Source: Sinomicrobium weinanense
GTDB taxonomy: Bacteria > Bacteroidota > Bacteroidia > Flavobacteriales > Flavobacteriaceae
Assembly (NCBI RefSeq): GCF_018863395.1
Contig: NZ_JAHKRR010000003.1
Span: forward strand, 1-64,000
DNA length: 64,000 bases
Direction of reading: 5' to 3'
A program made the translations under genes and the position numbers. The notes below the pieces were generated by a model. That model saw only the letters and a list, made by a program, of their open reading frames with translations. It was not told the origin of the DNA and made no database searches. Of the stretch, positions 34,080 to 42,891 are shown in pieces. Position 1 is the stretch's first letter, and each line of letters begins with the position of its first letter.

Positions 34080-34943
34080 CTGTTGCACAAGTTAGCAAAA
34101 AAATGATATAGGGTTGATATTATCCTTATCTAAGCAAGGTATCTTGGAGTATGCAAAGTAAAAAACAGTATCAGGAAAAGCTTTTCAATCAATTTCAGTT
34201 AAGTGATCGGGTACCCAAAGACAATTTCTACCGTCGGTTAAAAGAAGTATTGGATTTAAATTATTTATATCCACTTACCAAACAATATTATGGCAGCAGT
34301 GGACAAAAGAGCATCGATCCGGTAGTGTTCTTTAAACTCTGTCTGGTGGGCTATTTAGAAAACATTACCAGCGACCGTCAGCTTATAACGCATCGCAGTA
34401 TGCGTTTGGACATTTTGTTCTTTTTGGACTATGATATCGATGGGGATCTTCCCTAGCACTCGACCATCAGCCGCACCCGACAATTGTTTCCTGAAGCCGT
34501 GTTTGAAGAAGTTTTCACCAAGGTATTTGAACTATGTGTATCAGCCGGGATGGTCAGCGGCCACACCCAAGCTATTGACAGTGCGCCTGTAAAAGCCAAT
34601 GCTTCAATGGACAGCCTGGAACTGAAAGTACCTGAAGAAGAGTTAGAGTCGCATCTTCGAAAAGTGCGCCATATCAGTAAACACGACAAAGATAAACCAT
34701 TACGTCAGGCCAAAGCGAACAAAGCAGATAGAGAGCAGCAAACTCTGTCGGCCAGTAAAAAAGAATTGTAGGATATTAACAGCAGAAATATCAAGTGGGC
34801 AAAGGAACAGGATGGGCGTCCCGGAGCTGGTAATAAAGGAGCGAGGTATACCAGTAACAAAACCCATTACAGTCCTACCGATCCCGATGCCCGTATTAGT
34901 GTCAAACCGGGCAAAGCCAGGAAATTAGTGGGTTGTGCAACAG
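34080..34943 (+). mobile_element. Internally deleted IS1182-type insertion sequence
   Basis: Perfect 11-bp terminal inverted repeats: CTGTTGCACAA at 34080-34090 and TTGTGCAACAG at 34933-34943. The 864-bp element holds only the first two-thirds of a transposase frame, which stops matching the family right before the right end, so the 3' part was lost by internal deletion. No target duplication is visible. Confidence 0.75.
34151..34927 (+). pseudogene. Broken IS1182-family transposase
   Basis: One frame encodes the family N-terminus (FQLSDRVPKDNFYRRLKEVLDLNYLYPLTKQYYG, VFFKLCLVGYLENITSDRQL) and the central AGMVSGHTQAIDSAPVKANAS and YTSNKTHYSPTDPDARISVKPGKARKL segments. It is interrupted by TAG at 34454-34456, where related proteins have Trp (DLPWHST), and by TAG at 34769-34771. 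The frame ends at KARKL, lacking the C-terminal third with the last catalytic acidic residue. It cannot make an active transposase. Confidence 0.85.
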
Positions 34944-34971: not shown

Positions 34972-36219
34972 TTATTTCAGTTCATTGGTTAATTTAAGTC
35001 TAATATTTTCGTCTTGTATTGCTAAAATACATTTCGCAACAATTGCTTTTAAGTCTTTGTAATATTTCTCAAGTTGTTCGTTTGAAAACGATTCGTAACC
35101 GTGAAGCATTTGATTTCGTATTTTTCTTAATCGATGTATTTGGTTTTTTTCTTTTTGAGTTAAATGAGAAACTTCTCCAACTATATCTAAATTTGGAATG
35201 AAATTTTTACGATTCTTGTTTCCATTTTCATGATTTAATTGAGCTATCACTTTTTCAAACACAATCCAAGTTTTTGTAAATAATTCAAATCCAGAAACCT
35301 TCTTTTTGTCAGTTGTTATTTGACTAAAATATTTTTTCAGATTATCATTTTTTTCGTTGAGTGCAATAATATTTTGAAAAAGTTGGTCGGAAAAGGTCTC
35401 GTTTATATTGAGATTAATTTTACTAATTGCTTCTTGTATTTGGTTAGTGTCAATTTTGTCAATCGCTTTTAAATAATTATTTAAGTATTCTGTATTACCG
35501 AAATTAATTTTCTTAAAATTGTTTTTATAATTAGAGAAAATCAAATTTGTTAAATCATACTTATCGGTTATTTCAGCTTGTTTTGTAGTTCTTTCAGTAA
35601 TTGCTTTCTGTAGTCTTTCCAATGCAATTTCTCCAGTTAATACTAAACCATTTATTTCGTCTAATATTGACAGCTCTTCTTCGGTCAGATTTCCAGAAAA
35701 CGGTTTGTAGACTAAATCATGTTCAACTTCAGACCAAGCGTGCATTAAAACACTTGCTACTTGTATTTCAAAAACGGTATTAGTGAATCTTTTCTCAACT
35801 TCGTCAGATTTTTTTAGTCTCACACGATAATGAGTTGCCCAATAACCTGAAAACCGCTTATTATGCTTTGGCTTATGTGGATTTTCAGGAAATGTTTTGG
35901 TTTCTTCAATATCAAATAACTCTTCGATAACTTGCCCAACAACTTCTCTGTCAGACGGGAAATATAGAGCCACTCTTATTCCAGCCAAATCAACTATATC
36001 TTTTTCAATTGCTCGTTTCGATTTGTAGTTTTTCTTTTGGTTACGCTGTACGACTTTTTCCTTAAGTCTGTCGATTCTTTTAGCTCGATTTGAAATGATG
36101 GCTTTTAAACCTCTATTTATAATTTCAGTTTCTAATACATCGTGTCCAAGACGTGCAAGTTGTCTATAGAAATCATATTCCTTTTCGTATTGTGTTATGA
36201 AATTATCAATTATACTCAT
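34972..36219 (-). CDS. RelA/SpoT-domain protein with HEPN-like C-terminal motif
   Basis: 415 residues. Residues of about 40-175 form a RelA/SpoT nucleotidyltransferase domain: KSKRAIEKDIVDLAGIRVALYF (Asp77, Gly80, Arg82), GYWATHYRVRL (Tyr126, His130), and EIQVASVLMHAWSEVEHDLVYK with Glu151 and Gln153. No HD hydrolase or TGS/ACT domain is present. A helical C-terminal region ends with RNQMLH at 368-373, the R-x4-H pattern of HEPN ribonucleases. Such stand-alone synthetases make alarmones or pyrophosphorylate tRNA, often as toxins. It is flanked by a 12-bp inverted repeat in a mobile island. A toxin/defence role is inferred. Confidence 0.78.
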   Translation of the reverse strand: MSIIDNFITQYEKEYDFYRQLARLGHDVLETEIINRGLKAIISNRAKRIDRLKEKVVQRNQKKNYKSKRAIEKDIVDLAGIRVALYFPSDREVVGQVIEELFDIEETKTFPENPHKPKHNKRFSGYWATHYRVRLKKSDEVEKRFTNTVFEIQVASVLMHAWSEVEHDLVYKPFSGNLTEEELSILDEINGLVLTGEIALERLQKAITERTTKQAEITDKYDLTNLIFSNYKNNFKKINFGNTEYLNNYLKAIDKIDTNQIQEAISKINLNINETFSDQLFQNIIALNEKNDNLKKYFSQITTDKKKVSGFELFTKTWIVFEKVIAQLNHENGNKNRKNFIPNLDIVGEVSHLTQKEKNQIHRLRKIRNQMLHGYESFSNEQLEKYYKDLKAIVAKCILAIQDENIRLKLTNELK

Positions 36220-36879: not shown

Positions 36880-37194
36880 TCATTTATCTATCAGTCGGGC
36901 TATCTTCGATTCCGGGACGAACTCTTTTACCTTTTCCCGGAAAGCCATGCGCTCCCATACTGTATTGCCTTCCTCAGAGCATACTTTTTTGAAGTTATCC
37001 AGTCTGGAAACTAAAAAGGAAATCACATCATCGGGGACACGTACTTCTTTGATCTTGTTTCGCTTTCTATTCATTCGTAGTAGCAAATACCTGGAATTAG
37101 CATAGCTTTTCGAAAAGATGGCCCATTCAAAGTACCTCACGATAGCGATGGGTTCCTGGCTGTCTATCAAATTTTTGACCTCTGTACTCTTCAT
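36880..37194 (-). CDS. Small hypothetical island protein
   Basis: 104 residues, basic, no signal peptide or membrane span. Mixed alpha/beta pattern (IAIVRYFEWAIFSKSYANSRYLLLRMNRKRNKIKEVRVPDDVISFLVSRLDNFKKV). Not recognised. It lies 147 bases from the small membrane protein in the same direction and upstream of the long hairpin at 37424-37533. Confidence 0.5.
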   Translation of the reverse strand: MKSTEVKNLIDSQEPIAIVRYFEWAIFSKSYANSRYLLLRMNRKRNKIKEVRVPDDVISFLVSRLDNFKKVCSEEGNTVWERMAFREKVKEFVPESKIARLIDK

Positions 37195-37423
37195 TGACGA
37201 GCGATTTTAAGATTAATGAAAAGGTGTAGAGGTAGTAGATGGATAAGTGGAGTATTTAAAAGAAAGGAAAAGGCGTCCCTCTTCCTTTCCTACTACCCCA
37301 AAATAACAGGACAAAACTGCCCCGTTATGCTTTAATGTGCGAAAACTCCAAAAGGTTTTTGTAGATAGCTTTTTGCTAAAGAGAAGTAGAGTAACAAAAA
37401 AATAGGCGTGGAACTCAACTTAC

Positions 37424-37533
37424 CGGATGAAGGTACTGGTATACCTGTACACGAATAAGTGAGCCCACGCCCGGGTCGTGAGCTTTATCACTTATCATCT
37501 CGCGTACATAAAAAATTACCAGTTTTTCATCCG
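37424..37533. other. Long nested hairpin (structured RNA or DNA site)
   Basis: The 110-nt segment folds on itself in nested stems: CGGATGA (37424-37430) with TCATCCG (37527-37533); ACTGGTA (37435-37441) with TACCAGT (37517-37523); GTACACGA (37447-37454) with TCGCGTAC (37500-37507, one mismatch); ATAAGTGA (37455-37462) with TCACTTAT (37488-37495); and an apical CACG/CGTG helix around a CCCGGG loop. It lies between a minus-strand and a plus-strand gene and is not followed by a T-run, so it is not a simple terminator. Type (ncRNA, origin, recombination site) is undecided. Confidence 0.7.
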
Positions 37534-37579
37534 AGACTCTAAGCGAATAGCTTCTAATATTTTTCTATAAGAAGTGTCG

Positions 37580-37621
37580 CAAATATATGTAACGTTGAAC
37601 AAATATATACAAAAACGTTTT
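37580..37621 (+). promoter_or_regulatory. Putative operator/promoter of the HTH gene
   Basis: A direct repeat, CAAATATATGTAACGTT (37580-37596) and CAAATATATACAAAAACGTT (37600-37619), plus the palindrome AAAACGTTTT (37612-37621), lies 50-90 bases before the HTH start. This suits autoregulation; no biochemical support can be seen. Confidence 0.4.
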
Positions 37622-37671
37622 GTCATCCAAATGGATTACAAAAATAAAATTATTATTTCCAAAATTGCAGT

Positions 37672-37953
37672 ATGGCAGAACTTTCAAAAGAGGATATAAT
37701 TTTAGCTAATAAAATAGCCAAGAGAATTAAACAACTCCGCATTCAAAGCACCGGAGTTAAACAAATAGATTTCGCCAATAAGTACAATATTGACCGACAA
37801 ATAGTAAGCCGATGGGAAAGCCTGATAGTCGTTGATCCAAAAACGGGTAAACCAAAAGGACGGGGAGTTACTATTTATACAGTGGAGAAATTCTGTAAAT
37901 TACTTGGCATTACTCTAAAAGATTTCTTCAATGATCCGATATTTCTCAAATAA
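37672..37953 (+). CDS. XRE-family helix-turn-helix regulator
   Basis: 93 residues. HTH at about 17-75 (IKQLRIQSTGVKQIDFANKYNIDRQIVSRWESL ... GVTIYTVEKFCKLLGITLKDFF), with the recognition helix NIDRQIVSRWE. The insert VDPKTGKPKGRG between helix 3 and 4 is longer than in the simplest Cro-type proteins, but seen in Bacteroidota island regulators. It probably represses itself or other island genes; a repeated CAAATATAT/ACGTT motif lies just upstream. It is convergent with the fic gene. Confidence 0.85.
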   Translation: MAELSKEDIILANKIAKRIKQLRIQSTGVKQIDFANKYNIDRQIVSRWESLIVVDPKTGKPKGRGVTIYTVEKFCKLLGITLKDFFNDPIFLK

Positions 37954-37988: not shown

Positions 37989-39095
37989 TTATAAAAGACC
38001 ACCAGGATAATCTATATTCAAATAGTACCTTGTCCCCTTCCGCTCACCTGTTCTTATAAAAGCCTCCAGCTCTACTAACTTTTGCAGATCACGTGTTGCG
38101 GTGGAAGCCGTAGTTTTAGTAATACGCCTGTAATTATCAGCACTTAATCCTCCCTGAAATCCATGAATCCCCTCTTTAAAGATCCGCGCCACTACTTTTT
38201 GCTGTCTTTCGTTTAACTTGGCCTCAAAACGCTGATAAAACCCTGCTTTTTCGATAAGAAAGTTTATCCTGCCCTGTGTATAGTTCTGGGCCTGAAGAAC
38301 CATTTTACAGAAATACACCAACCATTCCGTAATATCCAGCCTGGTACTGTTTTGATGAAGCGCTTCATAATACTTCTTTTTGTCGTGTTCAATGGTATGG
38401 GAAATTGCAATAAGTGTAGGTCTTTGCAAACTTTGGGATAATGCTTTTTCCGAAACAGCACGGCCTATTCTCCCATTCCCATCCTCAAATGGGTGAATAC
38501 TTTCAAAATAGAGATGGGCAATCCCCGCCCGGGTAAGTGGATCGAGGCTTTCGGTACTATTGAACCATGAAATGAAAAGGTCCATCTCTTTTTTCACCTG
38601 ATGTGAAGGCGGAGCCTCATAATGGATTCTCGGACGATTCATAGGGCCGGATACAATTTGCATTGCATCGTCATGGGTCCTATAGCTTCCTATGTCCAGC
38701 AGATCACGACGCCCTTTGGCTAACATGGCATGCCATTGGCATAATTGCTCATGGGATAAAGGGGTATGATAATTTTTATACAGATCAATCATCATTTCAG
38801 AAATTCCTTGCTCAGCCGGTGAAATCCGACGTACATCCCCTTTTAGTCCAAAATGTTTTCGAATGGAAGATTGCAACGAATCCCTGTTGAGCAGCTCCCC
38901 TTCTATTTCAGAGGTTTTATATGCTTCATCACTAATCAGCATAACTTTCAATACATCCTGATCTTTACTACTTACGTGTTTAAGACTGCCGTACAACATT
39001 CCTGCATTATGCAAAAAATCTTTCTCATAAGCCGTTAAAAGGGTTGTATCATAGGTAAAATCCGGCCAGTTTTTATGTTGCCAATTCCATGCCAT
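37989..39095 (-). CDS. Fic-family protein (DUF4172-Fic-winged helix)
   Basis: 368 residues. DUF4172-like N-terminus (MAWNWQHKNWPDFTYD) carrying the inhibitory-helix motif TSEIEG at 61-66, which matches the [ST]-x3-E-[GN] autoinhibition signature of class II Fic proteins. Complete catalytic motif HPFEDGNGRIGR at 201-212. A C-terminal winged-helix (RRITKTTASTATRDLQKLVELEAFIRTGERKGTRYYLN) suggests DNA binding. It transfers AMP to protein hydroxyls; the target is unknown. A perfect 28-bp palindrome upstream suggests autorepression. Confidence 0.92.
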   Translation of the reverse strand: MAWNWQHKNWPDFTYDTTLLTAYEKDFLHNAGMLYGSLKHVSSKDQDVLKVMLISDEAYKTSEIEGELLNRDSLQSSIRKHFGLKGDVRRISPAEQGISEMMIDLYKNYHTPLSHEQLCQWHAMLAKGRRDLLDIGSYRTHDDAMQIVSGPMNRPRIHYEAPPSHQVKKEMDLFISWFNSTESLDPLTRAGIAHLYFESIHPFEDGNGRIGRAVSEKALSQSLQRPTLIAISHTIEHDKKKYYEALHQNSTRLDITEWLVYFCKMVLQAQNYTQGRINFLIEKAGFYQRFEAKLNERQQKVVARIFKEGIHGFQGGLSADNYRRITKTTASTATRDLQKLVELEAFIRTGERKGTRYYLNIDYPGGLL

Positions 39096-39740: not shown

Positions 39741-40190
39741 ATGGACGAAAGAAACAACAATGAGAAAAGAAAACGATTATGGAAAGGCGGGCGAAAACCC
39801 AAAAATGACCCTGCGGTTTACCGCTATTCCATATCGCTCAACGCGGCGGACAACGCCCGTTTTCTATCACTTTTTGAAAAGTCGGGTATGAAAGTTAAAG
39901 CTCATTTTATTACGGCCTGTATCTTCCAAAAAACGGTAAAGACCGTGAAAATCGACAAGGCGGCCATGGATTATTACATGCGGCTCACCACTTTGTATGG
40001 CCAGTTCCGTGCCGTAGGCGTAAACTATAACCAGATCGTAAAATTACTTTATCGCAATTTTTCCGAGAAGAAAGCTGCCGCTTATCTATACAGACTGGAA
40101 AAACAGACCGCGCAGATGGCAGTGTTATGTCAAAGGATTATCAAGTTAACAGAAGAATTTGAAGCAAAATATTTAGGAAAAGACAGATAA
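39741..40190 (+). CDS. MobC-like relaxosome accessory protein
   Basis: 149 residues. N-terminal basic segment KRKRLWKGGRKPKNDPAVYRYSISLNAADNARF, then FLSLFEKSGMKVKAHFITACIF and DYYMRLTTLYGQFRAVGVNYNQIVKLL, ending in a coiled coil. This is the ribbon-helix-helix-like MobA/MobC accessory family of Bacteroidota conjugative and mobilisable elements, which binds oriT and helps the relaxase. No relaxase gene follows, so the transfer module is incomplete; mobilisation would need a relaxase supplied in trans. Confidence 0.82.
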   Translation: MDERNNNEKRKRLWKGGRKPKNDPAVYRYSISLNAADNARFLSLFEKSGMKVKAHFITACIFQKTVKTVKIDKAAMDYYMRLTTLYGQFRAVGVNYNQIVKLLYRNFSEKKAAAYLYRLEKQTAQMAVLCQRIIKLTEEFEAKYLGKDR

Positions 40191-40583
40191 GATAATGGCA
40201 ATCGGCAAAGGATAGAACCTTTGGAGCACTTATATCTCCTTTCAATATGCTTCACAAGCTGGGTTAGATCAATCAAAACTTCATTATAATGGTTGTTGCA
40301 AGGTAAAGCAGATGTTTATGGTGTTCATAAAAACTGTTTTGCAACAAAAAACAAACTATATTTTGTCAATAAATAACGTTTAGTGTCAAAATATAGTTCA
40401 CATAGTATATATCCTCTACCCAAAGGGGATTGAGATTGGGATTTGACTTCCCTTCCTTGTCAATAGTATCCATGGGTTATCTCCCATAATCGCCAACACA
40501 CGACAAATAAGACCCCTCGATGCCATAATCCCAAGTCTCCCTATCTCTACATCTATTTTTAATGTAGCAGATACATCGCAGGG
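40191..40583. other. Gene-free region between mobC-like and the small recombinase-associated gene
   Basis: No supported coding frame. Where other elements of this kind carry the relaxase gene, nothing remains here except non-coding sequence. Confidence 0.5.
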
Positions 40584-40745
40584 ATGCACGGAAAAAAAGA
40601 AATAAAGAAAATGCCCATCGGGGAAGCCATGGAACTCCTCCGGAAGGAGGGTATTGTCGTAGACAGGGAAGAAGCAGAACTCATCATGGAGTTCCTGTAC
40701 AACCTTACGATGATCGTTATCCGGGAATACTTTGATGCAGAATAG
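40584..40745 (+). CDS. 53-residue conserved-looking small protein before the recombinase
   Basis: Too short for most gene finders. ATG at 40584, TAG at 40743-40745, sequence MHGKKEIKKMPIGEAMELLR... then DREEAELIMEFLYNLTMIVI. It is acidic, helical, without a signal. Small proteins of this type often precede integrases in Bacteroidota elements; role unknown (possible directionality or regulatory factor). It lies 63 bases upstream of the recombinase in the same direction. Confidence 0.6.
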   Translation: MHGKKEIKKMPIGEAMELLRKEGIVVDREEAELIMEFLYNLTMIVIREYFDAE

Positions 40746-40808
40746 TTTATTTCGTATCTTAGCTACTATCTTCAGCAGTTTAGTGCACCCAACCACAATA
40801 AATTATCT

Positions 40809-42377
40809 ATGAAAATAGCAGATTTATACATCCGTGTTTCCACTGATGAGCAGGCGGACAAAGGATATTCCCAAAGAGACCAGGAAGAGCGGTTAAGGCG
40901 TTTCTGTTCCGCAAACGGAATCACCATTGGACAGGTTATTCGTGAAGACTATTCCGCCAAGACCTTCAATCGTCCTGAATGGATAAAGCTGCTGGCCAAT
41001 CTTAAAAAGAAAAGTTCGAAAACGAATCTCATCCTTTTTACAAAATGGGATCGCTTCAGCCGCAATGCGGGGGATGCCTACCAGATGATAAGCACATTGA
41101 CAAAGCTGGGTGTGGAACCACAAGCCGTGGAGCAACCTCTTGACCTTACCATCCCGGAGAACAAAATGATGCTTGCTATTTATTTGGCTGCTCCTGAAGT
41201 GGAAAATGACCGCAGGGCGCTCAATACCTTCTATGGTATGCGCAGGGCAAAGAAAGAAGGGCGTCTGATGGGGAGAGCTCCATTTGGATATATCAATAGA
41301 AGCAAAGAAGATAGCCAAAAGTATGTCGCCGTAAAAGAACCCGAGGCATCAAGTTTGCGATGGGCATTCAATGAAATCGCCAAAGGGGTCTTGGCTGCTG
41401 ACCAGGTTCGTAAAGAAATGAATAGACTTTGCTCAAAAAAACTAAGCAGAAGTGCTTTCCATGTAGCTGTCCGCAACCCGTTGTACTGCGGTAAGATATT
41501 CATCGAGAAATTTAAGGACGAGGAAGCTCATTTTGTACAGGCACAACACGAACCATTGATAACCGAAGTGCTTTTCAATAAAGTACAGCAGATGCTGGAT
41601 GGTAACAAAAGAGCGGAGCGCCCGAACACCAAAGTCCTTTCCGATACCAATTTACCTTTACGGGGCTTTCTGACCTGCCCCAGATGTGGGCACAACCTGA
41701 CTGGTAGTGCATCCAGGGGAAGTACCGGTCGTTGCTACTATTATTATCACTGCTCATCTACCTGTGGTTTCCGGCAAAAAGCCAAAGTAGCCAATGATGT
41801 TTTCGAGAAAGGTCTGTCTCAATTGAAGATCAACAATGGCATAAACAATATTCTTAAAAAACTGCTGCTTGACAACTACAAACAGTTTGTAAAAAATCCG
41901 ATGGACGAACGGAAAAGGATTTCAGAAAAGATAGATATGCTGAATGCAAAACTTTCCGTTGCGAGGAACAAGCTGCTCGCCGAAACCCTGGATGATGAAG
42001 ATTACCTTAAAATCAAAAAAGAGTGCAAAGCGCAGATCGAAAAACTGGAAGAACAATTAAGTAAAAAGGGGTTAGAAACTCAAGGCATCAACATCAACGA
42101 ACTGTTAGACAAGGCATTAAAAGGTGCCGAAAACATCGCAAAACTGTATGGAGATGGGGGAATCAGAACCCGAAGGGATATCATTAGTTCGATATTCCCT
42201 GAAAAACTGGAATTTGACGGAACAAATTATCGAACTTTTCGGATGAACGTAATTGCACATCGTATCTTTCAGATAAACAATGAATTACCAGAAAATAAAA
42301 ACAGGAAAAGCGACCATTTTAATCACTTTTCCTGTCAAGTAGCCCCGCCAAGAATCGAACTTGGATCTAAAGTTTAG
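40809..42377 (+). CDS. Large serine recombinase (island integrase)
   Basis: 522 residues. Resolvase domain with the nucleophile Ser11 (LYIRVSTDEQ) and the catalytic DRFSRNA region; Recombinase domain (GRAPFGYINR ... NPLYCGKIFIEKF); zinc ribbon with CPRCGHN and HCSSTCGF around 288-325; and a coiled coil at about 385-425. It catalyses site-specific integration/excision. Its last codons run through the 45-bp repeat and into the antisense strand of tRNA-Arg (VAPPRIELGSKV), so its C-terminus was probably altered by integration. Part of an element ending at this tRNA. Confidence 0.92.
   Translation: MKIADLYIRVSTDEQADKGYSQRDQEERLRRFCSANGITIGQVIREDYSAKTFNRPEWIKLLANLKKKSSKTNLILFTKWDRFSRNAGDAYQMISTLTKLGVEPQAVEQPLDLTIPENKMMLAIYLAAPEVENDRRALNTFYGMRRAKKEGRLMGRAPFGYINRSKEDSQKYVAVKEPEASSLRWAFNEIAKGVLAADQVRKEMNRLCSKKLSRSAFHVAVRNPLYCGKIFIEKFKDEEAHFVQAQHEPLITEVLFNKVQQMLDGNKRAERPNTKVLSDTNLPLRGFLTCPRCGHNLTGSASRGSTGRCYYYYHCSSTCGFRQKAKVANDVFEKGLSQLKINNGINNILKKLLLDNYKQFVKNPMDERKRISEKIDMLNAKLSVARNKLLAETLDDEDYLKIKKECKAQIEKLEEQLSKKGLETQGININELLDKALKGAENIAKLYGDGGIRTRRDIISSIFPEKLEFDGTNYRTFRMNVIAHRIFQINNELPENKNRKSDHFNHFSCQVAPPRIELGSKV
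42291..42335 (-). terminator. Right 45-bp repeat; terminator of tRNA-Arg and putative att site
   Basis: On the minus strand CAGGAAAAG...CTTTTCCTG forms a 9-bp stem followed by TTTTTATTTTC, immediately after the tRNA 3' end. The sequence is identical to 32680-32724 at the other end of the island. Confidence 0.8.
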
Positions 42378-42411
42378 GAAACTTCTATTCTATCCATTGA
42401 ACTACGGGGCC
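42340..42411 (-). tRNA. tRNA-Arg (anticodon CCU)
   Basis: Minus strand: acceptor GGCCCCG with CGGGGCT, D arm GTTCAATGGATAGAAT, anticodon loop TTCCTAA (anticodon CCT), T arm CCAAG-TTCGATT-CTTGG, discriminator A; CCA is not encoded. A perfect hairpin (AAGAGTTG/CAACTCTT, 42415-42434) lies right before the 5' end. Its 3' end adjoins the island repeat, a common integration site. Confidence 0.95.
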
Positions 42412-42466
42412 TCCAAGAGTTGGATACAACTCTTACAAAACAGTACAGTAAGTTTAAAACTTAAAA

Positions 42467-42497
42467 CAAAAAAGCAACCGTAAGTTGCTTTTTTTTC
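42467..42497 (-). terminator. Terminator after the tRNA-Asn genes
   Basis: GCAAC (42474-42478) with GTTGC (42484-42488), A-run on the left and T-run on the right; works in both directions and separates tRNA-Asn from tRNA-Arg. Confidence 0.75.
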
Positions 42498-42500
42498 TTT

Positions 42501-42566
42501 GCTCCTCCTCTTGGGCTTCCTTCGGCTACGCTCAGGATAAACTTCTCACCCAAAAGTATTCGCTTT
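42501..42566. repeat. Repeat unit with duplicated tRNA-Asn 3' end (unit A)
   Basis: 42501-42517 copies the last 16 bases of tRNA-Asn plus one flanking base (GCTCCTCCTCTTGGGCT on the plus strand). It is followed by TCCTTCGGC...CTCAGGATAAAC...CTTCTCACCCAAAAG, then the true tRNA. Unit length 66 bp. Confidence 0.75.
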
Positions 42567-42567
42567 G

Positions 42568-42641
42568 CTCCTCCTCTTGGGCTCGAACCAAGGACCCTCT
42601 GATTAACAGTCAGATGCTCTAACCAACTGAGCTAAGGAGGA
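42568..42641 (-). tRNA. tRNA-Asn (anticodon GUU), copy 1
   Basis: 74 nt. Acceptor TCCTCCT/AGGAGGA, D arm GCTCAGTTGGTTAGAGC, anticodon arm CTGACTGTTAATCAG (anticodon GTT), T arm CTTGG-TTCGAGC-CCAAG, discriminator G, no encoded CCA. Identical to the copy at 42818-42891. Confidence 0.97.
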
Positions 42642-42678
42642 AAATATCTTCAATACTACACGTTATGAACGTTTTTTT

Positions 42679-42816
42679 GCTCCTCCTCTTGGGCTTCCTT
42701 CGGCGAAGTTTATACTGAGTTTACCTGTACTGAGCCTGTCGAAGTATCGAAGTGCTCAGGATAAACATTTCGGCTCTGCTCAATGCATCGCTTCTCACCC
42801 AAAAGTCATCGCTTTT
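42679..42816. repeat. Repeat unit with duplicated tRNA-Asn 3' end (unit B)
   Basis: Same design as unit A but 138 bp: tRNA 3' fragment at 42679-42695, then a longer run of CTTCGGCGAAG, ACTGAGCCTGTCGAAG, GTGCTCAGGATAAAC and CTTCTCACCCAAAAG before the second tRNA-Asn. Confidence 0.75.
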
Positions 42817-42817
42817 G

Positions 42818-42891
42818 CTCCTCCTCTTGGGCTCGAACCAAGGACCCTCTGATTAACAGTCAGATGCTCTAACCAACTGAGCTAAGGAGGA
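42818..42891 (-). tRNA. tRNA-Asn (anticodon GUU), copy 2
   Basis: Same 74 bases as copy 1. A TATTTTTG box (42912-42919 on the complement) lies about 20 bases upstream and could serve as its -7 element. Confidence 0.97.

Follow-up and report, generated by a model that had tools for sequence, protein, structure and literature searches.

The window analysed here is a 64,000-nt stretch of the Sinomicrobium weinanense genome (Flavobacteriaceae; contig NZ_JAHKRR010000003.1, positions 1 to 64,000), and the feature under study lies in an intergenic region of a mobilisable island. On one side of the feature is a divergent gene for an XRE-type HTH regulator (HTH_3; 37672-37953, plus strand), followed by a gene for a Fic-domain protein (DUF4172 and Fic, with SoFic as the best PADLOC hit; 37989-39095, minus strand). 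On the other side, the first gene of the operon codes for a protein of 104 amino acids (36880-37194, minus strand), which had no match in Pfam, NCBIfam or PADLOC but recurs behind six other copies of the element described below. Two further hairpins (37262-37326, minus strand) are located between the element and this gene, and are conserved among loci with this gene family. Downstream of the operon is a gene for a RelA/SpoT-domain protein with a weak HEPN/Csx1-like C-terminus (34972-36219, minus strand), which may represent toxin or defence cargo. A broken transposase consisting of a DUF772 fragment and a following piece in separate frames, an IS remnant, is present at 34151-34771 (plus strand). 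A MobC-like gene and a serine recombinase (39741-42891) end next to a cluster of three tRNA genes, which is the likely integration site of the island.

Structure, strand and distribution of the RNA

The earlier note described a 110-nt multi-stem hairpin at 37424-37533, and this observation was confirmed. The predicted folding energy is -41.7 kcal/mol on the plus strand (z -6.55) and -47.2 kcal/mol on the minus strand (z -7.09), with none of 200 shuffled sequences folding as well, and the outer boundary is exactly stem P1 (37424-37431 with 37526-37533). However, the note requires correction on several points. The RNA is on the minus strand, which the note did not read; it is longer, spanning about 185 nt (37394-37582; covariance model R1 match, 198.9 bits), with the hairpin as its central part; a T-run, stated to be absent, is located directly after it on the minus strand (TATTTTTTT, 37396-37404); and the element is not unique.

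No Rfam 15 family matched the region at the gathering cut-off, and none matched the RNA at E<=5. We identified five copies in this genome (contig and position C23:37455, C23:360316, C12:424951, C3:76161 and C2:44183), with 78-100% identity over approximately 150 bp, while a search of a plasmid collection yielded only one distant copy, on a Rhizosphaericola plasmid. A DNA search of 60 relatives recovered the element in 14 genomes, with up to seven copies per genome. A covariance model built from 40 copies identified it in 38 of 199 genomes of the family and in 54 of 395 sampled genomes of the phylum, and 102 homologues were aligned. An exact 23-mer from the apex occurs in 110 stretches of named Bacteroidota genomes, including Sinomicrobium, Aequorivita, Allomuricauda/Flagellimonas, Mesonia, Leeuwenhoekiella, Maribacter, Salegentibacter, Echinicola, Niabella and Marinilabilia. 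Three IMG/VR viral contigs (loci L366, L367 and L368) also carry the core motif.

The RNA starts at a promoter -7 element of the Bacteroidota TAnnTTTG type (TATATTTG, 37576-37587, minus strand). This motif was found in 87 of 107 homologues, in 86 of them at the identical position, as compared to 1% of the control windows. The 5' hairpin P0 (37543-37580, minus strand) is supported by covariation, and is followed by P1, in which the sequence is hypervariable but the pairing is conserved (7 of 7 pairs with changes on both sides, 96% paired). Inside P1 are two conserved cores, (G)AAAACTGGYA-TTTT (37511-37527, minus strand) and GGTATRCCAGTACC (37432-37445, minus strand), each of which can form a small hairpin of its own (GGUA/UACC in the second core), and the loops of which pair with each other to form P2. 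Across the family, the cores read GAAAACUGGyA-UUUU and GGUAurCCAGUACC. Segment A (37477-37508, minus strand) contains the 5' strands of P3, P4 and P5, and the apical loop is the palindrome CCCGGG (37470-37475, minus strand), replaced by CCTAGG or CCGCGG in other copies. A kissing-loop dimer via this loop is suggestive, but some copies lack a palindrome.

Over the 102 homologues, 95.8% of the cells are paired and 34 of 41 pairs show compensatory changes, with a covariation score of 0.397 as compared to 0.127 in shuffled alignments and at most 0.053 in slid controls. The alignment was fitted to the model, and the percentage of paired cells therefore leans towards it, but the compensations in P1 are plain in the raw sequences. 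A pseudoknot (GUCUC with GAGA) and the two core hairpins have weaker support. G-U cells outnumber A-C cells by 208 to 40, which fixes the strand. The absence of conservation or covariation in homologues had been named in the note as an outcome that would refute its reading, and these results did not refute it.

Segment B (GGCGTGGGCTCACTTAT, 37455-37471, minus strand), which represents the 3' strands of P5 and P4, is also complementary to a tail, segment C (GTAAGTTGAGTTCCACGCC, 37405-37423, minus strand), which is followed by the U-run TATTTTTTT (37396-37404). In the window, 16 pairs can be formed between B and C. Across the 102 homologues 91.5% of these are paired, 8 pairs have changes on both sides, none of 500 shuffles reached this level, and slid controls were 29-51% paired. 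Since the tail columns were unpaired in the covariance model, this is not a fitting artefact. The ratio of G-U to A-C cells is 184 to 22, and a U-rich stretch follows in most copies. Thus, a GC-rich stem with the shape of an intrinsic terminator (B:C) and a competing stem (A:B) share segment B, and both are conserved by covariation. The median predicted energies are -58.5 kcal/mol for the whole RNA and -31.3 kcal/mol for the part from B to the end, suggesting that the rod (A:B) wins at equilibrium in the unbound full-length RNA, and that a separate terminator can form when A is not available.

Genomic context and the match to a dCas12f guide RNA

In 85 of 107 loci, an XRE-type gene diverges directly upstream (representatives hit HTH_3 or HTH_26). 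Strong inverted repeats were identified in the region between in 29% of the loci, as compared to 4% in shuffled sequences and 0% in control regions. In the window, this repeat (TTTTGTAATCC..GGATGACAAAA, 37618-37643) is a candidate operator of the XRE regulator, with binding inferred; the sequence differs between loci. The next gene of 90 amino acids or more is on the same strand in 98 of 105 loci, as expected of a leader. The downstream genes code for SusC/SusD transporters in 51 of 107 loci and for sigma-E and a dead Cas12f protein (dCas12f) in 11, while others code for sigma/FecR/SusC, small unknown proteins, such as the 104-aa protein in the window, and HEPN proteins. In some loci (L035, L039, L048 and L056), short open reading frames, several ending in LF-KKPK-like motifs, are located between the leader and SusC.

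The 365-aa dCas12f protein scored below the cut-off of the NCBIfam model guided_TnpB, but is similar over its full length to the proteins named "Nuclease-deactivated Cas12f" in PDB entries 9n9c, 9n9m, 9n9o and 9n9q (E 9e-193 to 9n9c), and the top hits with Foldseek were 9n9m and 9n9c. An AlphaFold model was of low confidence (pLDDT 58), and the identity thus rests on sequence. By inspection, the protein ends before the zinc ribbon and the third RuvC motif, and the usual acidic RuvC residues are replaced. Its sigma partner matches chain C (RpoE) of 9n9q (E 2e-106). Both are encoded intact in this genome (locus L007). All seven full-length dCas12f copies found by the first protein search are located behind the leader.

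Directly 3' of the dCas12f gene is a second conserved RNA, GAGGGTGCTTGTACACCC..GGTGAG..CTCACTAAATG..ATACAAC, followed by a guide. The guides differ between copies while the scaffold does not, which sets the boundary between them. In this genome, the guide is GCGTGGGCTCTCTTAT, which corresponds to segment B with one mismatch; the matching part in the window is GCGTGGGCTCACTTAT (37455-37470, minus strand), preceded by a G at 37471. RNA-guided transcription of this kind reportedly depends on a G 5' of the target and starts at a fixed spacing. Allowing for two mismatches, the 5' G plus guide was found in the 5.36-Mb genome only at the five leaders (1, 1, 1, 1 and 2 mismatches) and at the guide gene itself, where C replaces the G. 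The next sites have three mismatches and are about as many as obtained with a reversed-pattern control. Guide position 11 mismatches all five leaders. Over 13 guide/target pairs, positions 1-10 match in 11-13 pairs, but positions 11-12 in only 7.

We also compared guides and leaders in other genomes. In genomes G002, G004, G152 and G161, the leaders are likewise among the best-matching sites, whereas the diverged leaders of Leeuwenhoekiella polynyae (G171) are not. In the latter genome, however, a diverged leader (L158, GCGTGACATTC) is met by a diverged guide (GCGTGACATCTG). Another locus, L345, has an array of six guides, several of which are of the leader type. In genome G127, the sigma-E/dCas12f operon is associated with an XRE gene and a different, unrelated hairpin leader (locus L242, 3660-3790), a strand of which matches the local guides with an 11-nt seed after G, providing a second instance of the same design. 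On the other hand, many leader-bearing genomes lack dCas12f, and most of those searched have no intact copy, which means that the leader must also work without it. Genomes G026 and G160, which keep leaders, contain decayed remnants of dCas12f and its guide RNA (L245 and L246). Also, 8 of about 23 distinct dCas12f loci with readable guides, or about a third, show no guide that matches this leader, although this count was made by eye and some guides may have been missed by the search pattern.

Interpretation and comparison with known systems

Taken together, the hairpin is the middle of a conserved 5' leader RNA located between a divergent XRE regulator and the operon that it heads. The comparative data demonstrate the promoter, the structure and its strand, the distribution of homologues, the alternative pairing, the position in front of operons, the match to the guide and the identity of dCas12f and its sigma factor. 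What we infer from sequence alone is that the XRE protein binds the locus-specific repeat and controls the promoter, that the leader is a transcription attenuator in which termination is regulated by the pairing of B with A (read-through) or with C (terminator), and that the same DNA is bound by the RNA-guided sigma factor as a landing site for initiation. We consider this combined reading to be probable. In this view, the guide lies in the same direction as the operon, and transcripts started by the complex downstream of B would lack A and B, and would bypass both the XRE promoter and the terminator. Since the sigma-E/dCas12f operon carries the same leader, the scheme would be self-activating and would tie all leader-marked operons, including SusCD transporters and mobile-island cargo, into one regulon. 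More tentatively, and with slightly less than even odds in our judgement, a mobile RNA-guided sigma factor may use the switching strand of a widespread attenuator as its address, overriding the local regulator and the attenuator to switch on all such operons at once, with guides and leaders co-evolving. If so, the recently solved complex would have a concrete natural regulon that can be read from sequence, and whether RNA-guided initiation bypasses an attenuator would become open to a clean test. In addition, the element represents an uncatalogued structured RNA family in Bacteroidota, with over a hundred examples, at the head of outer-membrane nutrient transporters and island cargo.

A possible, although less favoured, alternative is that the leader is only an attenuator or a riboswitch in which the core senses a protein or a metabolite, and that the guide match is a secondary co-option in some lineages that is not needed in this genome. 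The many leaders in genomes without dCas12f, the strongly conserved core (GAAAACUGG../GGUAUxCCAGUACC) and the conserved switch are consistent with this view. However, this genome encodes an intact sigma-E/dCas12f operon with a guide for which the leaders are the only close sites apart from its own gene, the core is largely explained by two alternative pairings so that no ligand pocket is evident, and the varied downstream genes suggest no ligand. It is unlikely that the element is a stand-alone trans-acting small RNA that ends at the U-run, with B:C simply as its terminator, in the way that the Bacteroides FopS sRNAs act on susC mRNAs. The U-run, the multiple copies and the association with SusC would fit, but the next gene is mostly on the same strand, and a free small RNA would not need a second conserved pairing of B with A.

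The initial idea that the leader is itself the guide or tracr RNA of dCas12f, prompted by the 11 dCas12f operons that it heads, was rejected as very unlikely, since a separate scaffold with variable guides was found 3' of dCas12f, and the leader has no variable 3' guide and occurs without dCas12f. The interpretation in the earlier note was partly supported: its suggestion of a structured non-coding RNA is strongly supported by conservation and covariation, but a single-strand recombination or replication site and a retron-like RNA are not supported. The location in a mobilisable island with MobC and a serine recombinase could suggest an oriT, a single-strand origin, a recombination site, a retron msr-msd or a MITE. 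However, Pfam scans of the flanking genes in the window and of representative homologous loci revealed no reverse transcriptase family, the copies are located at promoter-proximal positions of operons rather than at mob genes or element ends, the G-U/A-C asymmetry shows selection on an RNA of one strand, and compensatory changes were observed in promoter-linked copies including SusCD loci. These readings are therefore considered highly improbable.

Among known systems, the dCas12f and sigma factor encoded in this genome are full-length homologues of the sigma-E/dCas12f RNA-guided transcription system (PDB 9n9c, 9n9m, 9n9o, 9n9q), with a guide RNA 3' of dCas12f. The element in the window would be a target site and leader, not part of the machine, and it is not known to us that the natural target is a conserved structured leader family shared by many operons. 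The promoter-proximal position, the mutually exclusive stems and the U-run are shared with transcription attenuators, terminator-antiterminator leaders and riboswitches, but no leader peptide or ligand was recognised, there is no Rfam match, and part of the putative switch doubles as a predicted RNA-guided DNA target. The TldR proteins, TnpB-like nuclease-dead repressors (PMC13418256), also represent nuclease-dead proteins of the TnpB/Cas12f family used as RNA-guided transcription factors, but the Bacteroidota protein identified here is paired with a sigma factor, is expected to activate and has its own guide RNA scaffold. Rfp18 was also considered and judged to be different. Finally, the FopS/GibS sRNAs of Bacteroides thetaiotaomicron (PMC11697453) are likewise a multicopy RNA family linked to genes for SusC-like transporters, but FopS sRNAs are trans-acting repressors of translation, while the RNA described here lies in cis upstream of the operons and has a long covarying fold.
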